Positions 1-43,727 of a DNA stretch of 64,000 nucleotides are shown here, in pieces. Numbering within the stretch: the first letter of the stretch is position 1; each line of letters starts with the position of its first letter. Source of the DNA: Alphaproteobacteria bacterium (lineage in GTDB: Bacteria > Pseudomonadota > Alphaproteobacteria > RF32 > CAG-239). Under the pieces are notes generated by a model that was not told the DNA's origin, searched no databases, and worked only from the letters and a program-made list of their open reading frames with translations. Both the position numbers and the translations under genes were made by a program. Location of the stretch: positions 87,617 through 151,616 of the forward strand of contig JAQWBS010000001.1 of the NCBI GenBank assembly GCA_028706255.1, in the 5' to 3' direction.

Positions 1-6792
<6,792 letters not shown>

Positions 6793-15241: not shown

Positions 15242-17229
15242 TTAAAAATTATATTTAAGCCCCAAGCTATACGAATCAATGTGGTTAACTTTCATGCTTT
15301 CTGAACCGCTGCTAAATTCTCTGGTATATTCTGCATAAATATTCATATTATCAAAAGCATTATAAGTTGTTCCTAGCCCAAGCTCATAAGTTGTTCCTCC
15401 TGTTTTTGAACGAGATTCAAAAGCCGTGCCGTCATTAAAACCAACAACACTGCTTCCATTAAATCGTCGCCACACATTTCCTTTAACATATGGAGAGAGG
15501 TGACCATTTAGAATTTCATACGTTGTGAAAAGTCTAAGCCCCAAACGTCCAATAACTTCATCACTAGACTTCACATCAACATCTGTTCCATTCATAGAAG
15601 ACTTTTTCACGTCAGTATAAGTGTAAATAACTTGAACTTGTGGCTCAATTCCAAATGCTTTTCTTTGTCCGAAATAGAAAGGATAGCCAGTTTCTGCAGA
15701 TAAGCTATAAGAAGTTGCATCATTTCGCTTAGAAGCAGAACCTTCTTCTTTTGGCTTAAGATTCATCTTATGAAATCCAACTTGCCCAACAAGATCAAGA
15801 TAATAACTGTTTTTATATGAAGGCATGTAAGTTGCATATAAACCCAAGTAGTATGAGGTGACATCAATATCCCCTGCTTTTTCATATCCCTCATCGCTCA
15901 AGCTATATACCTTTGCATCACTGGTTAATGCTGTCGCATATAACCCTGAATTCCACGTTTTATTAGCATAAAAATCTATACCAGATTGCAATCCATAAGT
16001 TGTCATATCAGTCTTAACAGGAGCTGTTCCACTTTGTTCAATGTCGCTATTTTTCGCAATCAACCTTGCCCAAATTCTCTTTCCTGAATCATAAAAATTG
16101 GAAAAGCCATTTCCTGTTTTTGCAACATCTCCCATTCTGGTATGAAGTGTGCCAATTGATTCTCTGTCAATGTTTTTTAAAATCCCTGACGTTGCAGTAA
16201 AAAGTGGAATTTCTCCACGATAGAAAGAACGTAAATACCAAACATTTCCGAGCCCTAAAAGATCACTGGCAAAGAGTTTATATTCATATGACCCTGCAAT
16301 GGCTTTATTTCCAACCAAGCTAAATTCTTCCCCCGTAAAATTACCTCCAATTTTGATAAGCTCAACACCATCACCAATCGTCCTTGCTCCTTTTCCAAGA
16401 ACATTTATCTGAACCAATGTTTTTCCTGAAGCATCTCCCGTAATTTCAAGAACATCGGCACTCTGCATAATACCGTTAAGCCCAAGAATCATCGTACCAT
16501 TATCCCCAACATAGTCTCCATCAACTTTGAGAACACTCCCCACAGAACCTTCAACATTTGTTGAAACATTGACAGTCCCAGCGTTTTTCATTCCCTTAAT
16601 GGTTTGACTAAATCCTTGTGTATCAAGTTTGGAAGTTTCATCAACTTCATAATAAGAATTTGCACTTAACGCATTGCTTCTCGCCGCAACCAACGTTGCC
16701 CCATTTTCAAGAATTGTATCTCCACTATAATCAGAAGCACCACCTCCTAAAACAGTTGTGCCGTTGCTCCTGATAAAACTTCCTGTCCCATGTAAATTAC
16801 CATAAATAGTTTGCGTGCCAGAACCTTTGGAAACGACTTCATCTCCCGCACCTGCAACATCTCCCATATAAATATCATATAAAAGATTAGTTTCTTCAGC
16901 ACTTTCATACGTTATCCTGACAAAAGCTCATTACCAGCCGTGTAGTTGAAACGACCTTCGCTTTCTAACTCTGTTGCTGCCTTATCACTCCTAATTGCTC
17001 CAACACCACTTGCGCCGATACTAATAATCCCTTCAATTGTCAAAGGCTCTCCATCATTCGGCACAGTAAGAGCAAATCCCGTATTTGTTGGTTCAAGAAA
17101 GGGAAGAGAAACCGTCGTGGCAGAAGCAAAAGCATTTGTAGAAAAGGAAATTACAACAGCAGATGTTAGCAATTTTAGTTTAAATTTTTTAGTCCAAATA
17201 TCAAAAGATTCAGACATCACGCCATCCAT
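15242..17229 (-). pseudogene. Autotransporter with passenger split by a -1 frameshift
   Basis: Outer-membrane autotransporter broken into two frames. The 5' part (from ATG 17229 or 17217 to the stop at 16912-16914) encodes a signal peptide (KLLTSAVVISFSTNAFA) and the passenger start. The 3' part, whose first ATG is at 16867 but whose frame opens further upstream (TYESAEETNLLYDIYMGDVAG), encodes beta-helix passenger repeats and a C-terminal beta-barrel ending LGLKYNF. The final Phe is the outer-membrane assembly signal. Adding one base to the T4 run (A4 on the plus strand, 16922-16925) would join the halves as GNELFVRITYESAEETN, which reads naturally. So it is a recent single-base indel, a phase-variable switch, or an assembly error. 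Confidence 0.8.
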
Positions 17230-26969: not shown

Positions 26970-27002
26970 ACCATAAAGATTATTTTTATGAGGAACGCAG
27001 AA

Positions 27003-27725
27003 ATGAAAACGACCATAAAAGTAAGCCACTTAACAAAAGACTTTCAAATTCTTAAGGCGGTTAATGAGGTTTCTTTTGAGGCTAAGAAAGGAGAAATCAT
27101 TGCCCTTCTCGGTCCAAATGGGGCGGGAAAATCGACCTTAATGAATATGATTGTTGGTTATCTTTCGCCAACGCAAGGCAACATTCAAATTCTCGAAAAA
27201 GACATTTCACAATATGGCATTTTTGCCAAAGAAAACATTGGTTTTCTTTCTGAAGGGGCGCCACTTTATGCCGATTTGAGTGTGAAGAGCTTTTTATCAT
27301 ACATCGCCGAACTCAAAGGCTTTTATGGAAAAAACAAAAAAACTGAGGTCGCCCGTGTGGCAAAACTTGCCAACATCACAGACATTTTAGAACAAAAAAT
27401 TGAAACCTTATCTAAGGGCTATTCCAGACGAGTTGGATTTGCGCAAAGCATTATTGGCAATCCACCAATCTTATTGCTAGATGAGCCAACAGACGGACTA
27501 GACCCTAACCAAAAAGAATATATGCGTCAACTCATTGCCAAAATGGGAAAAGATAAAACGATTATTATCTCCACACATTTACTGGAGGAGGCTGAAACAA
27601 TCTGCAATCGCATTATCCTTATCAATAAAGGCGAAATCAAGGCAGACGGAAACCTTGAAGCAATTTTAAAACAAACAAAAACAAAAAACTTAGCAGAAAC
27701 CTTTAAAAAGCTAACAAAACTCTGA
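27003..27725 (+). CDS. ABC transporter ATP-binding protein (GldA-like)
   Basis: Nucleotide-binding subunit of an ABC-2 exporter. 240 residues from ATG 27003, chosen over ATG 26988 because GAGGA precedes it. Walker A GPNGAGKST (about 38-46), Q loop region, a signature LSKGYSRR in the usual LSGGQ place, Walker B ILLLDEPTDGLDP and H loop STHLLEEAE are all visible. It is 10 bases before the large fused permease, so both form one transporter, similar in layout to the gldA-gldFG-type exporters; the cargo is unknown. Confidence 0.92.
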   Translation: MKTTIKVSHLTKDFQILKAVNEVSFEAKKGEIIALLGPNGAGKSTLMNMIVGYLSPTQGNIQILEKDISQYGIFAKENIGFLSEGAPLYADLSVKSFLSYIAELKGFYGKNKKTEVARVAKLANITDILEQKIETLSKGYSRRVGFAQSIIGNPPILLLDEPTDGLDPNQKEYMRQLIAKMGKDKTIIISTHLLEEAETICNRIILINKGEIKADGNLEAILKQTKTKNLAETFKKLTKL

Positions 27726-27735
27726 GAGAAAAAAT

Positions 27736-30700
27736 ATGAAAAAAATGGGAATCATCATTAAGAACGAACTTTTCAGATATTTCACCTCTCCGCTAGCCTA
27801 TGTTTATCTGATAAGTTTTCTCCTTCTCAACGGCTCTTTTGCCTTTTATTTTGGGGATTTCTTCCGTCGTGGACAAGCAAATCTTGATGCTATGTTTGCG
27901 TTTCAACCATGGTTATACCTCATTTTTATCCCAGGAATTGCGATGCGTCTTTGGGCTGAAGAATTTCGCTCCAAGACCGTAATCCAAATTGTGACGATGC
28001 CTATATCTATTACGACATTAGTTTGGGGAAAGTTTTTTGCAGCATGGCTTTTTGCAGGCATCGCACTTGCTTTAACCTTTCCATTCTGGATTTCTGTCAA
28101 CTTATTAGGCTCTCCTGATAATGGTGTAATTTTCATGGCTTATTTAGCAAGTTTCTTACTTGCTGGAAGCATTCTTGCAATCTCAGCAACAATGTCTGCC
28201 TTAACTCAAAATCAGGTTATTGCCCTTGTGTTGTCTTTCTTTGCAAATATCCTTTTCTTCTTAAGCGGACTAGATTTTGTGCTTAATTTCTTTAGGCTTT
28301 TTGCCCCTGTTGCTTTTGTTGATATGATTGCCTCATTCAGTTTTATAACACACTTTACCACCATGAGCAAAGGGCTGATTGAACTTAGAGATTTAGTCTT
28401 TTTTGCAAGCATTATTCTCTTGTTCAACTTTGCAACAACTTTGATTGTAAACTTTAAAACTTCAGGCACATCAAAGCTTTTCAAATCTAATAATAAGAAA
28501 TATTACAATATCTCCTTTGCCTTCATTTTAGTTGGATTTATCGGCTTAAATTTAATGGCAAATAGCTTGCTAAGAAACATTCAATTTGATGCCACAGAAG
28601 AAAAATTATACACCTTAAGCCCTTCAACACAAAAAGTTTTAGAAGACCTTCCAGACAATGTTTTAATTAAATTTTACTACTCACCTATGTTGGGTGAAAA
28701 GAACTATGAAATGCGTTTAATGTTTGACCGCATTCGCATTTTACTCAATAAATATGTCGCAGCTTCTAACGGAAAGATTGATTACAAAATTTATGCTCCA
28801 AAGTTTTTAGACCGCATTGAAGATGAAGCAATCACCAATAAAATCCAACCAATTCCGATGATTGAACTCAATCAAAATGGTTTCTTTGGCATGACCTTTT
28901 CAGACGCTTTAGATAATAAGAAATCAATTCCTTTCTTCCCAATGGAAAGACAAAATTTTATCGAGCAAGACATTACTCAAAAAATTTATGAATTATATCA
29001 TCAAAAGAAAACCGTGGGCATTTTAACACCATTAGTGATTGGTGATTCGAAAATTTCAGAAAACGTCATCACCACACGCTGGGAAATCGTGAATGTAATT
29101 GAAGAGCTTTATGACATCAAATTTATCTCTAAACCTGAAGAGATTGATAACCTTGATGTCTTAATGATTATCCACCCACAAAAACTTGACAACGAAATCA
29201 TTGAGAGCATTAAAGCATATAGTAGAAAGGGCGGAAAGTTTTTTGTGGCAGCTGATGGAGCTGTTGAATCTTCTCGTCTTTACACAGTTGCTAACCAAGA
29301 ATTTGCACCTTCAAATATGAATGGACTTGACGAGTTTTGGGGCGTTAAGCTTTATAACAACTGGGTTGTTGCGGATATGGACAACTCTATTGCGGTTGAT
29401 GCCACAGATAACTACAAAAGCAATCCAAAATTTTCACAAGACCTCATTCAGTTAAAATATGACAACAAAGCCTTTAATCCGCATTTGCCAGAAATTGCAA
29501 ATTTGCAATCCATTATGTTCACCTCTGTTTCGCCAATTGTCCCAACGGGAAAAGATATCATTTTCATTCCAATGATTAAGGCAAGTGATAATTCTCAAAT
29601 TATGCCAATTAAAACAATTTATGACAACCTAGCTCCAAATGAAATTTTGAAACTTTTCAAACCAGATGAGAACACCAAAATCTTGGCAGCAAGAGTTTTG
29701 GGTGAAACCATTGAAAATCCATTTGAACTTGTCATCGTGGGGGACACGGATTTTCTTTATGATTCATTTTGGAGTAAATCCACGCAAATTCTTGATGAGC
29801 AATATGCTATTCCACTTTTGGATAATGCCAATTTTGTGATGAATGTATTAGACACATTAACGCAAGACACAAACTTAGTGGAACTTCGAGGCAGAGCAGC
29901 AAAATTCCGCAAATTTGAGGACGTTGAAAAATCTCGCCGTGAAGCACAACATGAGTTTGCACTTAAAGAAGCCAGCATTTTAGAAAAAATAGACCGCACG
30001 AAAAAAGACCTTGAAGAGATTACAAACAAAAGAAACTTTGAAAAAAGAGATGAATTTACAACCGATGAATTAGCGGTTTTAGCAAACATTCGCCAAAACT
30101 TTGAAGCGCTACGCCAAGAACTGAGTGACATTCGATTAAATAATAATCTACGTGTAAAGAAAATTGAAACAGACTTGAAACTTTTTAACATTTTTGCCGT
30201 TCCAACACTCATTCTCTTAGCGCTTCTGATTGGCAAAAAACGTCAAAAAGGCAAAACTGAAAAACCCTCACAAAAATTATCTTTCAATAAAGAATTTAAG
30301 ATTGTGATGGGTGCCTCTTTAGCGCTCCTTATTGTCGGCACACTTGCAACTTTTCTCACAGACCGTAGTGAAATTGATTCATATGAAGATAAAGCCGTTT
30401 TCGAAAACCTTGCCCAAGAAGTTAATTCCCTTGAAAAAATTGCAATTAAAAGACACGAAAGCGAACTTGTTTTCTACAAAGAAAATAACATCTGGAAACT
30501 CCAAGGATATGAAGATTTCCCTGTGTATCAAGAACGAATCAAAAGCCTTCTTATTTCGCTAATCAATGCCAGATATTATGAGAAGAAAACATCCAAAATG
30601 GAACATCTTGATAAATTTGGACTAACGCCAATTGAAGAACCAAACTCAAAAAACACCAGAATTGAACTTCTTGCTGAAAATGGAAAAATCATTTCCGCTT

Positions 30701-31185
30701 TTGAAATTGGAAAACTCGACATTGACATTGGTAGAGGAGCAAAAGCTGCATATATGAAATTTGACAATCAGTTCCAAGTTTGGCTCATTGCTGTTGATTT
30801 CATCGATTTATCATCAAACTGGCAAGACTGGACATATAGCACTGCGTGGAATTTACGCTTCGGCAGACTTCAAAACTTTGATAACAAATCAACAAACGAA
30901 AGCCTGCTTTTCGCTAGAGATTTAGTTAATGTTCACTTCACAGGAAAAACGCTTCCTAAAGGAACAGAGCTTTCTTCCATTGAACTTATAACGGAAGATG
31001 ACGATAAAATAGAACTTGAATTATTTAAGAACGGAACAGATTATGCTGTCAGCTATAAACAAGTTTCTCAAAGGCTAACAAACCAGCACCTTCAGTTTTT
31101 CTATGAAACTGTTAAAGGTAAGAAATATCAGATTTCTGCAGAAGATAAGGACACAATATTAAATGACATCAACAACCTCAGATAA
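27736..31185 (+). CDS. Fused ABC-2 permease, GldG-like and DUF4340 protein
   Basis: 1,149 residues joining three normally separate proteins. Residues 1-245 are a six-helix ABC-2 permease (GldF-like; IKNELFRYFTSPLAYVY, RLWAEEFRSKT). Residues 253-832 are a GldG/ABC_transp_aux-like part: membrane anchor at about 253-275, large periplasmic domain (LYTLSPSTQKVLEDLP), coiled coil about 725-810 and a closing helix at about 816-832. Residues 853-1149 are a membrane anchor plus a DUF4340 domain (WKLQGYEDFPVYQERIKSLL, HLDKFGL, PEEPNSK-like segment). Start ATG 27736 follows the ATPase gene. Related genes are found as separate neighbours in other bacteria; fusion fixes their 1:1:1 ratio. Cargo unknown, perhaps envelope polysaccharide or lipid. 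Confidence 0.88.
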   Translation: MKKMGIIIKNELFRYFTSPLAYVYLISFLLLNGSFAFYFGDFFRRGQANLDAMFAFQPWLYLIFIPGIAMRLWAEEFRSKTVIQIVTMPISITTLVWGKFFAAWLFAGIALALTFPFWISVNLLGSPDNGVIFMAYLASFLLAGSILAISATMSALTQNQVIALVLSFFANILFFLSGLDFVLNFFRLFAPVAFVDMIASFSFITHFTTMSKGLIELRDLVFFASIILLFNFATTLIVNFKTSGTSKLFKSNNKKYYNISFAFILVGFIGLNLMANSLLRNIQFDATEEKLYTLSPSTQKVLEDLPDNVLIKFYYSPMLGEKNYEMRLMFDRIRILLNKYVAASNGKIDYKIYAPKFLDRIEDEAITNKIQPIPMIELNQNGFFGMTFSDALDNKKSIPFFPMERQNFIEQDITQKIYELYHQKKTVGILTPLVIGDSKISENVITTRWEIVNVIEELYDIKFISKPEEIDNLDVLMIIHPQKLDNEIIESIKAYSRKGGKFFVAADGAVESSRLYTVANQEFAPSNMNGLDEFWGVKLYNNWVVADMDNSIAVDATDNYKSNPKFSQDLIQLKYDNKAFNPHLPEIANLQSIMFTSVSPIVPTGKDIIFIPMIKASDNSQIMPIKTIYDNLAPNEILKLFKPDENTKILAARVLGETIENPFELVIVGDTDFLYDSFWSKSTQILDEQYAIPLLDNANFVMNVLDTLTQDTNLVELRGRAAKFRKFEDVEKSRREAQHEFALKEASILEKIDRTKKDLEEITNKRNFEKRDEFTTDELAVLANIRQNFEALRQELSDIRLNNNLRVKKIETDLKLFNIFAVPTLILLALLIGKKRQKGKTEKPSQKLSFNKEFKIVMGASLALLIVGTLATFLTDRSEIDSYEDKAVFENLAQEVNSLEKIAIKRHESELVFYKENNIWKLQGYEDFPVYQERIKSLLISLINARYYEKKTSKMEHLDKFGLTPIEEPNSKNTRIELLAENGKIISAFEIGKLDIDIGRGAKAAYMKFDNQFQVWLIAVDFIDLSSNWQDWTYSTAWNLRFGRLQNFDNKSTNESLLFARDLVNVHFTGKTLPKGTELSSIELITEDDDKIELELFKNGTDYAVSYKQVSQRLTNQHLQFFYETVKGKKYQISAEDKDTILNDINNLR

Positions 31186-32077
31186 CCTAAAAGCTTTAAA
31201 AAAGAAAGCCGGTTTTCTAAGCATTTCATTAGCTTTATTTTTGAGCATTTTGAAAATCATTGCAACAATTTACACAGGCTCTCTAGCGATTTATTCTTCA
31301 ATGATTGATAGCCTTTCTGACGTTTTGGCATCTACTGTGACCTTCTTCGCAATTCGTTTTTCCACACGTCCTGCCAGTCGAGATTTTAGGTATGGTTATG
31401 GCAAAGCAGAAGCGATTAGCTCTCTTTTCCAATCATTGTTTATTGCCGCTTCTGGACTTTATGTCCTTTGTGACGGCATCATACGTTTACGCTCCCCCGA
31501 AGCACTTGATGATAGTTTCATTGGCATTAGCATAATGATTATCAGCCTCCTTTTAACGTTAGCTTTAGTGATGTTTCAAAACCATGTCATCAAGAAAACA
31601 AACTCAATGGCACTTAAGGCTGACTCAGCTCACTATCTAGTTGACCTCACAACAAACGCTTCAATTATTCTTTCTTTGATTGCCATTAAGTTTTATAAAA
31701 TTTACTGGCTTGATAGCGTGATTGCCATCGTCATTTCGCTTTACCTTCTGCATATGGCATATGGCTTACTTAAAGAAGCAATTTTAACGCTGATGGATCA
31801 AGAACTTTCTGATGAAATTCGGCAAACTGTTGAGAGCCTTATTAAAAAGCAACCTTTCACCCGAGGCATACACGACCTTCGCACCAGAAGTTTAGGCGAA
31901 AAATTTCTCTTTGAATTTCATTTAGAATTAGATGAAGATATTTCCCTTAAACAAGCCCATGACTATGCCCACATCACTGAAGATGAAATTTTGAAAACAT
32001 ATCCTAATGCCCAAGTCATTATCCACCAAGAACCTTTTGGGGCGAAAGAAGAAAGACTAGACGACAATCTCTGTTAA
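31163..32077 (+). CDS. Cation diffusion facilitator (FieF-like metal efflux)
   Basis: Inner-membrane Zn/Fe/Mn-proton antiporter. 304 residues with six membrane helices (about 16-200) and a cytoplasmic C-terminal domain. Metal-site residues fit: Asp49 and Asp53 in the second helix (YSSMIDSLSDVLAS) and His/Asp in KADSAHYLVDL in the fifth. DxxxD rather than HxxxD resembles FieF/YiiP. It overlaps the fused transporter gene by 23 bases and so is probably cotranscribed with it. Metal specificity is not certain. Confidence 0.92.
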   Translation: MTSTTSDNLKALKKKAGFLSISLALFLSILKIIATIYTGSLAIYSSMIDSLSDVLASTVTFFAIRFSTRPASRDFRYGYGKAEAISSLFQSLFIAASGLYVLCDGIIRLRSPEALDDSFIGISIMIISLLLTLALVMFQNHVIKKTNSMALKADSAHYLVDLTTNASIILSLIAIKFYKIYWLDSVIAIVISLYLLHMAYGLLKEAILTLMDQELSDEIRQTVESLIKKQPFTRGIHDLRTRSLGEKFLFEFHLELDEDISLKQAHDYAHITEDEILKTYPNAQVIIHQEPFGAKEERLDDNLC

Positions 32078-40890: not shown

Positions 40891-43611
40891 TTAGAAATTA
40901 TATCTAATTGTCAAATAAACCTGATCATCATGATAACTTGAGTTTGCATCTCGAGCATATCCGAAGTTAAATGCAATTGGTGTCAAAATGTTATTAATTT
41001 TGAAATTAAAACTTCCTCTAACACTATCACGCTTTGTTGCATCTCCTCTAAAAGTCCAAGGAGAATTTGGATTCCCAACAAAGGAAGCTCGCACCTCAGA
41101 AGCCGTATCCCCCACATTTCGTGAATAAGCCAACTCCATCGCAGGCGTGATGATATAAGTGTCGAAGACCATATTTCTTGAAACTCTTAACCCAACAGGA
41201 ATTTCCACACTATTCCAATAAGCGCTTTTGAACTTTCTTGCCCCAATGCCCTTTTCTGTGTAGGCATCATTATAAAGATAGGCATATTCCACACCAACAA
41301 ACGGTTCGACCACCCCACATTCATTGCCAATATCATATCCAAACTCTGCATTTGCAAAGAGGGTTTTAGTATTATATTGCCCAGTTGAATTAATCGTACT
41401 ACTAACAACATCTGTCTTATTAGTGATAATTCCACCGCCTAAACTTCCTGTGATATATACTCTTTGAGGTTTATATTTTCCATAAAGCGAAACCAAATAT
41501 TCATCAACTTCGGCTTTATTCTGAATGGATTGCCCCTTTCCTTCAACATCACCGAAAGCATAGCTAACGGCTAAACCAAGATTGAGCGCATTTGGAATGA
41601 AATCATAGTCATATCCCAAAGCAATGCTGGTTGGAGAATATTTATAACCGATTGTGGTTTTGCCACTATCTCGGTCAATCCAGTTCTGCCCAATATTTAA
41701 CCACAAATGTTCATCTGAAAACCCATTTGACATACCACAACTTGGACAATTTTTATTTTGCACGCGGGAAGAAATCTGACGCCCAAACTGTCTAATTCCT
41801 GATTTGTGAACTTCATTGTAAACAATATTATCTCGCCCAGCAATTACCGCAAATTTTTCTTCAGCATCTTTGCTTATTTCACCCGTATAATAAATATTAT
41901 CAAACATTTCTCTTTCGGAAAGTGAGAGGTCAGTTCTCATACGATAAGTGTCTGCCAAGGCAGTTAAGTTTTTATAGCCCTCTAAATCTCTCTTAATTTC
42001 AATATCTGTCGTGCCATTTTCAACAACCACAGAAGCCAAATCATTACTCCAACCAGTAAACTCACTATAATCATGTGCGTAGCTATAAGAACCGATTTCA
42101 TGAGAAGATAAATTATAAGGCACAAGATAAACATTATCTTTAAGAACTGCAGAACTACCAAGAAAAGATGATTTTGCTTCAGTCATAAGCGGACGAAAAC
42201 TTGTACCACTTTCAAAAACAACTTTTGCATTGCTCAAATCAAAATTAAGTCTTTGTCCGTTAGGGTCATTGATTAAATCTGGCTCTTGGTCATACATTGC
42301 ATATAAAGCACCTTCTTTGACATTAAACTCACCAAAATATTCACTATTATCTCCCCAAAGATATAAACTTCCTAACCCTGTCTTATTAATTACACCACCA
42401 GTTGTAGGATTTTCAAACTCATCAATACTTCTCATTGGGTCACGAACATTAATCAAAGTGTCCTGAAGGGTATGAAAATTAACAATCGCTGTTTCCTTAA
42501 CGAAGTCAATGGAGTTCAAACTTGGTGTTTCAACGCCATTATAAACCTTAATGACCTTATTATTTTCAAAAAGAATCTCTTTTTTATCTTCTGTGGTAGC
42601 AATGCCGATTGTTCCCTCAACATTATAAATCGCACCGCCTAATGCTCTGAAGTCTGAAACATAGTTTCCAATAAAATCACCCGTAATTCTACCGATTATT
42701 GAATTGTCATTATAAATTGCTCCACCCATACTTCTCCAGCCATCAAGCCCAACGGCAAAGTTTCCGATAAAATCCCCTTCAATCACACCAATTTCCGCAT
42801 GATTAAGATTATGAATTGCCCCACCTCTGGCAATCATCTTACTTGCCAAAGCTTGGTTAGCAATAAAATCACCTCGAATTGTGCCAATTTTTGAAGAATA
42901 ATAGTTATAAATCGCGCCACCTTGAGCCGGCGCACCCGCAGACGTCGCAACCTTGTTATTAATAAAATTACCATAAATATTTTCAATAACAGCCTGATCA
43001 TTATTATTGTTGATTGCCCCACCATTTGTTTCGACTGAACCGGAAGATTTATTCCCAATAAAATTGCCCGTAATTGTGCCAACTTTAGCTTCATTAACAA
43101 GAGCTCCTCCTTTGACACTGGAATCCGTGGTTTTCACATTATTGATGAAATCGCCCTCAATCAAATTAACCGTTGCTGGAGTGCTTCCACTAATTTCATT
43201 TGAAAAAGGCGTGGTGTTAACATTATTTACAAAGTCTCCACTAACTCTATCTAACTTCCCTTTGTTGGAAACAATCTTGGCTTGCGTTGCATCATAATCA
43301 AAGAAATGACCTTCAATTGTTCCCTCACTAGCATAATGCTCAACTCTATCATGAGGAACAATATCATCTCTAGGTGTAAGATCATATTTATAAAAAACTT
43401 TTTCCCATTTTCCATCAACAATTTCATAAGTTGAAAATACAGCATCTGCTTCATCGACTTTTGTAAAGACAACGTCAAAAGCGCTCTCCATAAATTCCGA
43501 TTCGCTATCAAGGGTGGATGTATAATTTTCTAAATTAAGATACGCATTTGCATTTGTTGAAAAGCAAACAGTACCAAGAAGACAGAAAAGAGCAGAAATA
43601 CTTTTGTTCAT
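40891..43611 (-). CDS. Autotransporter with repeat-rich passenger
   Basis: Type Va secreted outer-membrane protein, 906 residues from ATG 43611 (ATG 43623 is too close to the ribosome site). Signal peptide ends FSTNANA. Passenger (about 30-600) has repeated beta-helix units of the form GDFIGN...GGAIYN...IGxI about 30 residues apart between roughly 140 and 340; five or more copies are visible. The C-terminal beta-barrel (about 640-906) begins HLWLNIGQNWIDRDSGKTT and ends LTIRYNF with terminal Phe. A CPSCGM pair lies between. Such proteins usually act in adhesion; no protease motif seen. Intact, unlike the copy at 15242. Confidence 0.9.
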   Translation of the reverse strand: MNKSISALFCLLGTVCFSTNANAYLNLENYTSTLDSESEFMESAFDVVFTKVDEADAVFSTYEIVDGKWEKVFYKYDLTPRDDIVPHDRVEHYASEGTIEGHFFDYDATQAKIVSNKGKLDRVSGDFVNNVNTTPFSNEISGSTPATVNLIEGDFINNVKTTDSSVKGGALVNEAKVGTITGNFIGNKSSGSVETNGGAINNNNDQAVIENIYGNFINNKVATSAGAPAQGGAIYNYYSSKIGTIRGDFIANQALASKMIARGGAIHNLNHAEIGVIEGDFIGNFAVGLDGWRSMGGAIYNDNSIIGRITGDFIGNYVSDFRALGGAIYNVEGTIGIATTEDKKEILFENNKVIKVYNGVETPSLNSIDFVKETAIVNFHTLQDTLINVRDPMRSIDEFENPTTGGVINKTGLGSLYLWGDNSEYFGEFNVKEGALYAMYDQEPDLINDPNGQRLNFDLSNAKVVFESGTSFRPLMTEAKSSFLGSSAVLKDNVYLVPYNLSSHEIGSYSYAHDYSEFTGWSNDLASVVVENGTTDIEIKRDLEGYKNLTALADTYRMRTDLSLSEREMFDNIYYTGEISKDAEEKFAVIAGRDNIVYNEVHKSGIRQFGRQISSRVQNKNCPSCGMSNGFSDEHLWLNIGQNWIDRDSGKTTIGYKYSPTSIALGYDYDFIPNALNLGLAVSYAFGDVEGKGQSIQNKAEVDEYLVSLYGKYKPQRVYITGSLGGGIITNKTDVVSSTINSTGQYNTKTLFANAEFGYDIGNECGVVEPFVGVEYAYLYNDAYTEKGIGARKFKSAYWNSVEIPVGLRVSRNMVFDTYIITPAMELAYSRNVGDTASEVRASFVGNPNSPWTFRGDATKRDSVRGSFNFKINNILTPIAFNFGYARDANSSYHDDQVYLTIRYNF

Positions 43612-43727
43612 TTTTTTACACATCCTGTATAAATAATAATCATTATTATAATTCTATCAGAAAAAAACAATTATGGAAATAAAAATCATACAATAAGTTA
43701 TATATGTTAACTCAAGCTTAATCCCAC

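Follow-up and report, generated by a model that had tools for sequence, protein, structure and literature searches.

A permease, a GldG-like protein and a DUF4340 protein joined in one reading frame in a lineage of gut Alphaproteobacteria

The fused gene and its neighbors

We analyzed a 64,000-nucleotide stretch of an Alphaproteobacteria genome (GenBank assembly GCA_028706255.1, contig JAQWBS010000001.1; GTDB lineage RF32; CAG-239), referred to here as the window. The gene under study (Table 1) runs from an ATG start through 1,149 codons with no internal stop, which confirms the single uninterrupted chain given in a preliminary description of this DNA. Ten bases upstream of it is the stop codon of a gene for a GldA-like ABC ATPase, whose translation has intact Walker A (GPNGAGKST), signature (LSKGYSRR), Walker B (LLLDEP) and H-loop (STH) motifs. 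The top named NCBIfam model for this ATPase is GldA, at 257 bits and below the equivalog cut-off of 402.6. The fusion gene is thus adjoined by the cognate ATPase gene, motifs intact, that an ABC-2 type ABC transporter calls for, and an ATPase is found directly upstream of the fusion in 75 of the 80 loci described below.

On the downstream side, each of the three lineages with the fusion (the window's family and genomes G031 and G080, see below) has a CDF cation transporter gene next, and a functional link between this gene and the transporter is possible. The RlmB gene, located upstream of the fusion in the window, was not found beside the fusion in G031 or G080.

Table 1. Positions of the fused gene, its modules and junctions, and the flanking genes in the window.
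Feature	Position (residues)	Strand	Remarks
GldA-like ABC ATPase	26988..27725	+	245 aa; ABC_tran 8e-31
Fused permease-GldG-DUF4340 gene	27736..31185	+	1,149 aa
Module 1, six-helix ABC-2 permease, GldF/NosY-like	27736..28458 (aa 1-241)	+	NCBIfam GldF, NosY fold
Junction 1	28453..28500 (aa 240-255)	+	16-residue basic linker, cytoplasmic side
Module 2, GldG-like	28495..30234 (aa 254-833)	+	DUF7088, ABC_transp_aux, two membrane anchors
Junction 2	30235..30291 (aa 834-852)	+	19-residue basic, disordered, poorly conserved linker, predicted cytoplasmic
Module 3, membrane helix 853-875 and periplasmic DUF4340 protein	30292..31182 (aa 853-1149)	+	Pfam DUF4340
CDF cation-efflux gene	31163..32077	+	Cation_efflux 1e-42; overlaps 3' end of fusion gene

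Modules, predicted folds and linkers

The first module has the features of a six-helix ABC-2 permease. NCBIfam GldF aligns along its full model length (residues 4–238, 124 bits, E = 7e-36), the Pfam model ABC2_membrane_4 matches residues 7–172 at 26.6 bits, slightly under its cut-off of 27, and several ABC2_membrane models match in relatives of the fusion. The predicted fold of residues 2–241 aligns with NosY at Z = 22.4 (rmsd 3.1, 235 residues aligned, VIA-align).

The second module has the arrangement of a GldG/GIFT protein, that is, DUF7088 and then ABC_transp_aux, with a membrane anchor on either side of the pair. A membrane helix (residues 254–281) precedes DUF7088 (PF23357, residues 288–385, E = 3e-15) and the GIFT domain (ABC_transp_aux, PF09822, residues 424–703, E = 1e-31), both of which score over their curated cut-offs; a helical hairpin (728–802) and the second membrane helix (805–833) complete the module. 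The NCBIfam GldG match begins at residue 259. As determined by VIA-align, the predicted fold of residues 424–712 matches OST48 (Z = 19.7, rmsd 3.1, 222 aligned) and the N-terminal domain of IFT52 (Z = 18.6, rmsd 3.0, 209 aligned). These matches agree with the naming of the GIFT domain, which derives from GldG and IFT52 and for which sugar binding has been proposed (PMC7226087).

In the third module, Pfam DUF4340 (PF14238) matches residues 920–1061 (E = 2.5e-9, 38.0 bits against a cut-off of 25), and residues 876–1149 modelled alone gave a pLDDT of 94.7 and a pTM of 0.90. The top PDB match to this fold was YycH (Z = 5.5 over 101 residues), which we did not trust as a fold relative, and Foldseek returned no match at E = 0.001 or better; sequence searches of the PDB likewise gave nothing meaningful. 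Because there is no strong fold relative, any role assigned to DUF4340 is a guess. All three Pfam domains (DUF7088, ABC_transp_aux and DUF4340, the last at E = 0.1 or better) match in 30 of 30 aligned relatives. Thus, each of the three segments named in the preliminary description belongs to its family, with the permease identified by the GldF model and the NosY fold.

The whole chain was also modelled as a single chain (mean pLDDT 83.9, pTM 0.77), and pLDDT falls below 50 only at residues 834–850, within the second linker. Hydropathy averaged over 54 relatives, in agreement with the predicted structure, places about six permease helices ahead of the first GldG anchor, a periplasmic region extending to about residue 804, the second anchor, the linker and the last anchor at 853–875. 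These helices fit the anchors at about 253, 816 and 853 that had been proposed to mark the old gene boundaries. Both linkers are basic (five K/R and no D/E in the first, eight K/R and one D/E in the second) while the large domains are acidic, which fits a cytoplasmic and a periplasmic placement, respectively. The first linker is moderately conserved and has a constant length of 16 residues in 53 of 54 relatives; the second varies between 16 and 25 residues with a mean identity of 16%.

Spread and origin of the fusion

A single-sequence search of genome contigs gave no matches; an alignment-based search of public genomes instead yielded 80 relatives, and the fusion is present as one full-length frame in all 80 loci, which are contigs from separate assemblies. 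Within the window's family, 147 of 152 genomes match and 133, as counted from the search listing, carry one frame across all three modules; the remainder are mostly explained by contig-end breaks or incomplete genomes. Full-length frames range from approximately 1,143 to 1,227 residues, their domains align across the junctions, and family copies diverge to about 45% identity. No separate-gene version of the fusion clade was found among the 152 family genomes. No fused copy was seen in one genome that is approximately 100% complete (G768), and loss of the gene therefore appears possible. One record, JAISVX010000001.1 (locus L098), whose matching contig is as long as that of G001, a same-genus relative of the window's genome, is labelled 'Lactobacillaceae bacterium' and looks misnamed.

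Within Pseudomonadota, the phylum covered in the search for fusions, the fusion also occurs beyond the family. G031, the only representative of a second family of the order in our sample, encodes a three-way fusion of 1,033 residues (locus L241, G031 C71:3000-14000, at 3283-6384) with a shortened DUF4340 that ends about two thirds of the way through the domain model. The C-terminal third is apparently dispensable there, which suggests that this last third of DUF4340 is not always needed. G080, which belongs to a further family outside the order, encodes a 1,206-residue three-way fusion. The G080 genome is 6% contaminated, but its fusion protein shares just 32% identity with the window protein and branches outside all family members, indicating that it is not a stray copy from a member of the family. 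In a midpoint-rooted tree of ATPase, permease and GldG, which leaves out G031 and has some weak deep branches, the three-way fusions form one clade (support 1.0) beside operons of separate genes. This monophyly implies that the fusion arose once, with the stop codons of a colinear operon lost a single time. Judged from these sequences, the fusion is old, of single origin and nearly universal in its group of gut bacteria; it represents a transporter type already known, though poorly characterized, in a variant architecture that is fixed in one lineage.

Transporters of this GldG/DUF4340 type are common in Pseudomonadota. In most other Alpha- and Gammaproteobacteria examined, the ATPase, permease, GldG and DUF4340 proteins are encoded by four consecutive separate genes, in line with the preliminary description of the three as ordinarily separate neighbors. 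A Pseudomonas aeruginosa operon (OI911_00345-00330, CP109682.1) contains the same four parts in the same order and directly adjacent, but as four genes; one tblastn piece across its permease and GldG genes spans residues 1–762 of the query at 31% identity. The genome of the window itself carries a second system in the same order (G000 C6:3162-7499, locus L210, C6:1-12000), in which only the permease and GldG are fused (852 aa, G000 C6:4067-6625) while DUF4340 is a separate protein of 295 residues. This second system falls in another clade of the tree than the three-way fusion, and the related second operons of other family members have all genes separate. Two-way permease-GldG fusions (850–1,080 aa) occur in this second system, in G354 and in one separate clade, and look like independent events, a view limited by the midpoint root and some weak deep branches. 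Long DUF4340 frames (600–1,050 aa) in other Alphaproteobacteria were considered as further fusions. Domain mapping in nine such genomes (G158, G260, G073, G199, G276, G302, G229, G187 and G307, with DUF4340 not placed in G276) revealed neither a three-way nor a GldG-DUF4340 fusion, and most of the mapped frames were either over-extended or overlapping. Beside the second system, L210 contains a 168-residue reading frame (2720-3226, − strand) that by eye resembles MlaD/MCE-type lipid-transport proteins.

A proposed transporter and alternative readings

A close known counterpart is GldA-GldF-GldG of Flavobacterium (TIGR03522, TIGR03518 and TIGR03521), which consists of the same three kinds of protein and whose GldA shares the LSKGY signature with the window ATPase (PMC9127263). 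The system described here differs in that permease and GldG are joined in one chain with an added DUF4340. The same review states that membrane localization of GldA in F. johnsoniae requires both GldF and GldG, which supports a complex of the unfused proteins; the passages concerned make no mention of DUF4340. The NosDFY copper-related ABC transporter has a permease, NosY, of like fold but only 14% identity, and its NosD has a gene of its own and is not known to be a GIFT/DUF4340 protein. The GIFT domains of OST48/Wbp1 and IFT52 share their fold with the second module at 10–17% identity, but these are eukaryotic proteins with no ABC permease attached.

We consider it fairly probable that the product of the gene is half of an ABC transporter of the GldAFG type, and that this half would pair with itself and with two ATPases, driving a GIFT/DUF4340 assembly in the periplasm. 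In this arrangement, the NosY/GldF-like permease is followed head to tail by the GIFT protein GldG and then by DUF4340, with the two junctions predicted on the cytoplasmic side, where helices can be connected without disturbing the topology. As in other ABC-2 systems, two fused chains probably pair with two copies of the upstream ATPase, so that GldG and DUF4340 would each be present in one copy per permease. ATP-driven movement of the permease pair would then be passed through the anchors to the large periplasmic domains. These in turn would act on a substrate of the envelope; that it may be a glycan or glycolipid is a guess that follows from the GIFT fold and the sugar binding proposed for it.

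Four other readings of the locus were weighed against this transporter. For an assembly or frameshift artefact one could cite only the metagenomic origin of nearly all member genomes, since such assemblies may contain errors; given the same full-length frame in independent assemblies (80 of 80 loci, and 133 of the 152 genomes in the family) and the alignment of domains over the junctions, we reject this reading, whose chance is negligible. A role as the transporter that serves the type IX secretion system in gliding motility, as in Bacteroidota, would account for GldA, GldF and GldG being the best named models. Their scores of 257, 124 and 67 bits, however, are all far below the curated NCBIfam equivalog cut-offs (402.6, 288.5 and 389.9, respectively), homologues are widespread in Pseudomonadota, which are not known to have type IX secretion, and SprA was not found in this genome by a search whose control set likewise gave no positive. 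A gliding role is thus not supported and appears very improbable. It is less remote, though still quite unlikely, that the protein is cut at its linkers or partly made in pieces by internal translation, leaving its working parts separate as in relatives. The second linker has the disorder, basic charge and lack of conservation that a site sensitive to proteases could show, and an ATG occurs somewhere around it in 16 of 54 relatives. Against this, the first linker is short and constant in length, and the window sequence has no start codon at either junction. A ribosome-binding motif precedes the true start in 53 of 54 relatives, whereas an ATG or GTG with such a motif occurs near the permease-GldG junction in none of the 54 and near the GldG-DUF4340 junction in three. 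This near-absence of internal start signals disfavors internal translation, though it is compatible with proteolysis, and the module set is likely translated as one chain.

The most serious alternative, which we regard as somewhat unlikely, is that the fusion makes no functional difference: the stop codons that separated close, colinear genes were lost once in an ancestor and the result was inherited, the joining being tolerated rather than important and DUF4340 not necessarily part of the core. The single origin, the gene order shared with relatives, the topological ease of joining at both junctions and the lack of conservation in the second linker all accord with such an accident, and the other permease-GldG fusion in the same genome suggests that genes of this kind are readily joined in genomes this small. 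However, all 133 full-length family copies have kept the fusion with no reversion to separate genes despite their divergence, and each of the three domains is retained under clear sequence constraint. The preliminary description held that the fusion reveals one complex of fixed stoichiometry, which is reasonable but too strongly stated, since the fusion alone is no proof of a fixed complex. Together with the conservation of the operon, it strongly suggests one.

For the transporter reading, the lineage-fixed fusion provides independent evidence that DUF4340 physically belongs to the machine, and it is good evidence that DUF4340 is a working part. Our literature search found no paper connecting GldG to DUF4340 or identifying a substrate, and none that treats two or more of PA4037-PA4040; a DUF4340 protein has been reported as essential in Verrucomicrobium spinosum (PMC12283558). 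A bolder and distinctly speculative proposal is that a widespread bacterial ABC machine with GIFT domains serves to move or position a glycan or glycolipid of the envelope, and that DUF4340 may be an obligate periplasmic subunit of it whose fold is unrecognized in the PDB; such a machine would be a remote functional relative of the OST48 arm of oligosaccharyltransferase. The fused form offers a practical route to structure, with one chain in place of three subunits; if the glycan proposal is correct, this machine could be purified as one 130-kDa subunit plus one ATPase.

Elsewhere in the window, the 1.6-Mb genome encodes two autotransporter beta-domain proteins, at 15242-16867 and 40891-43623, both on the − strand.
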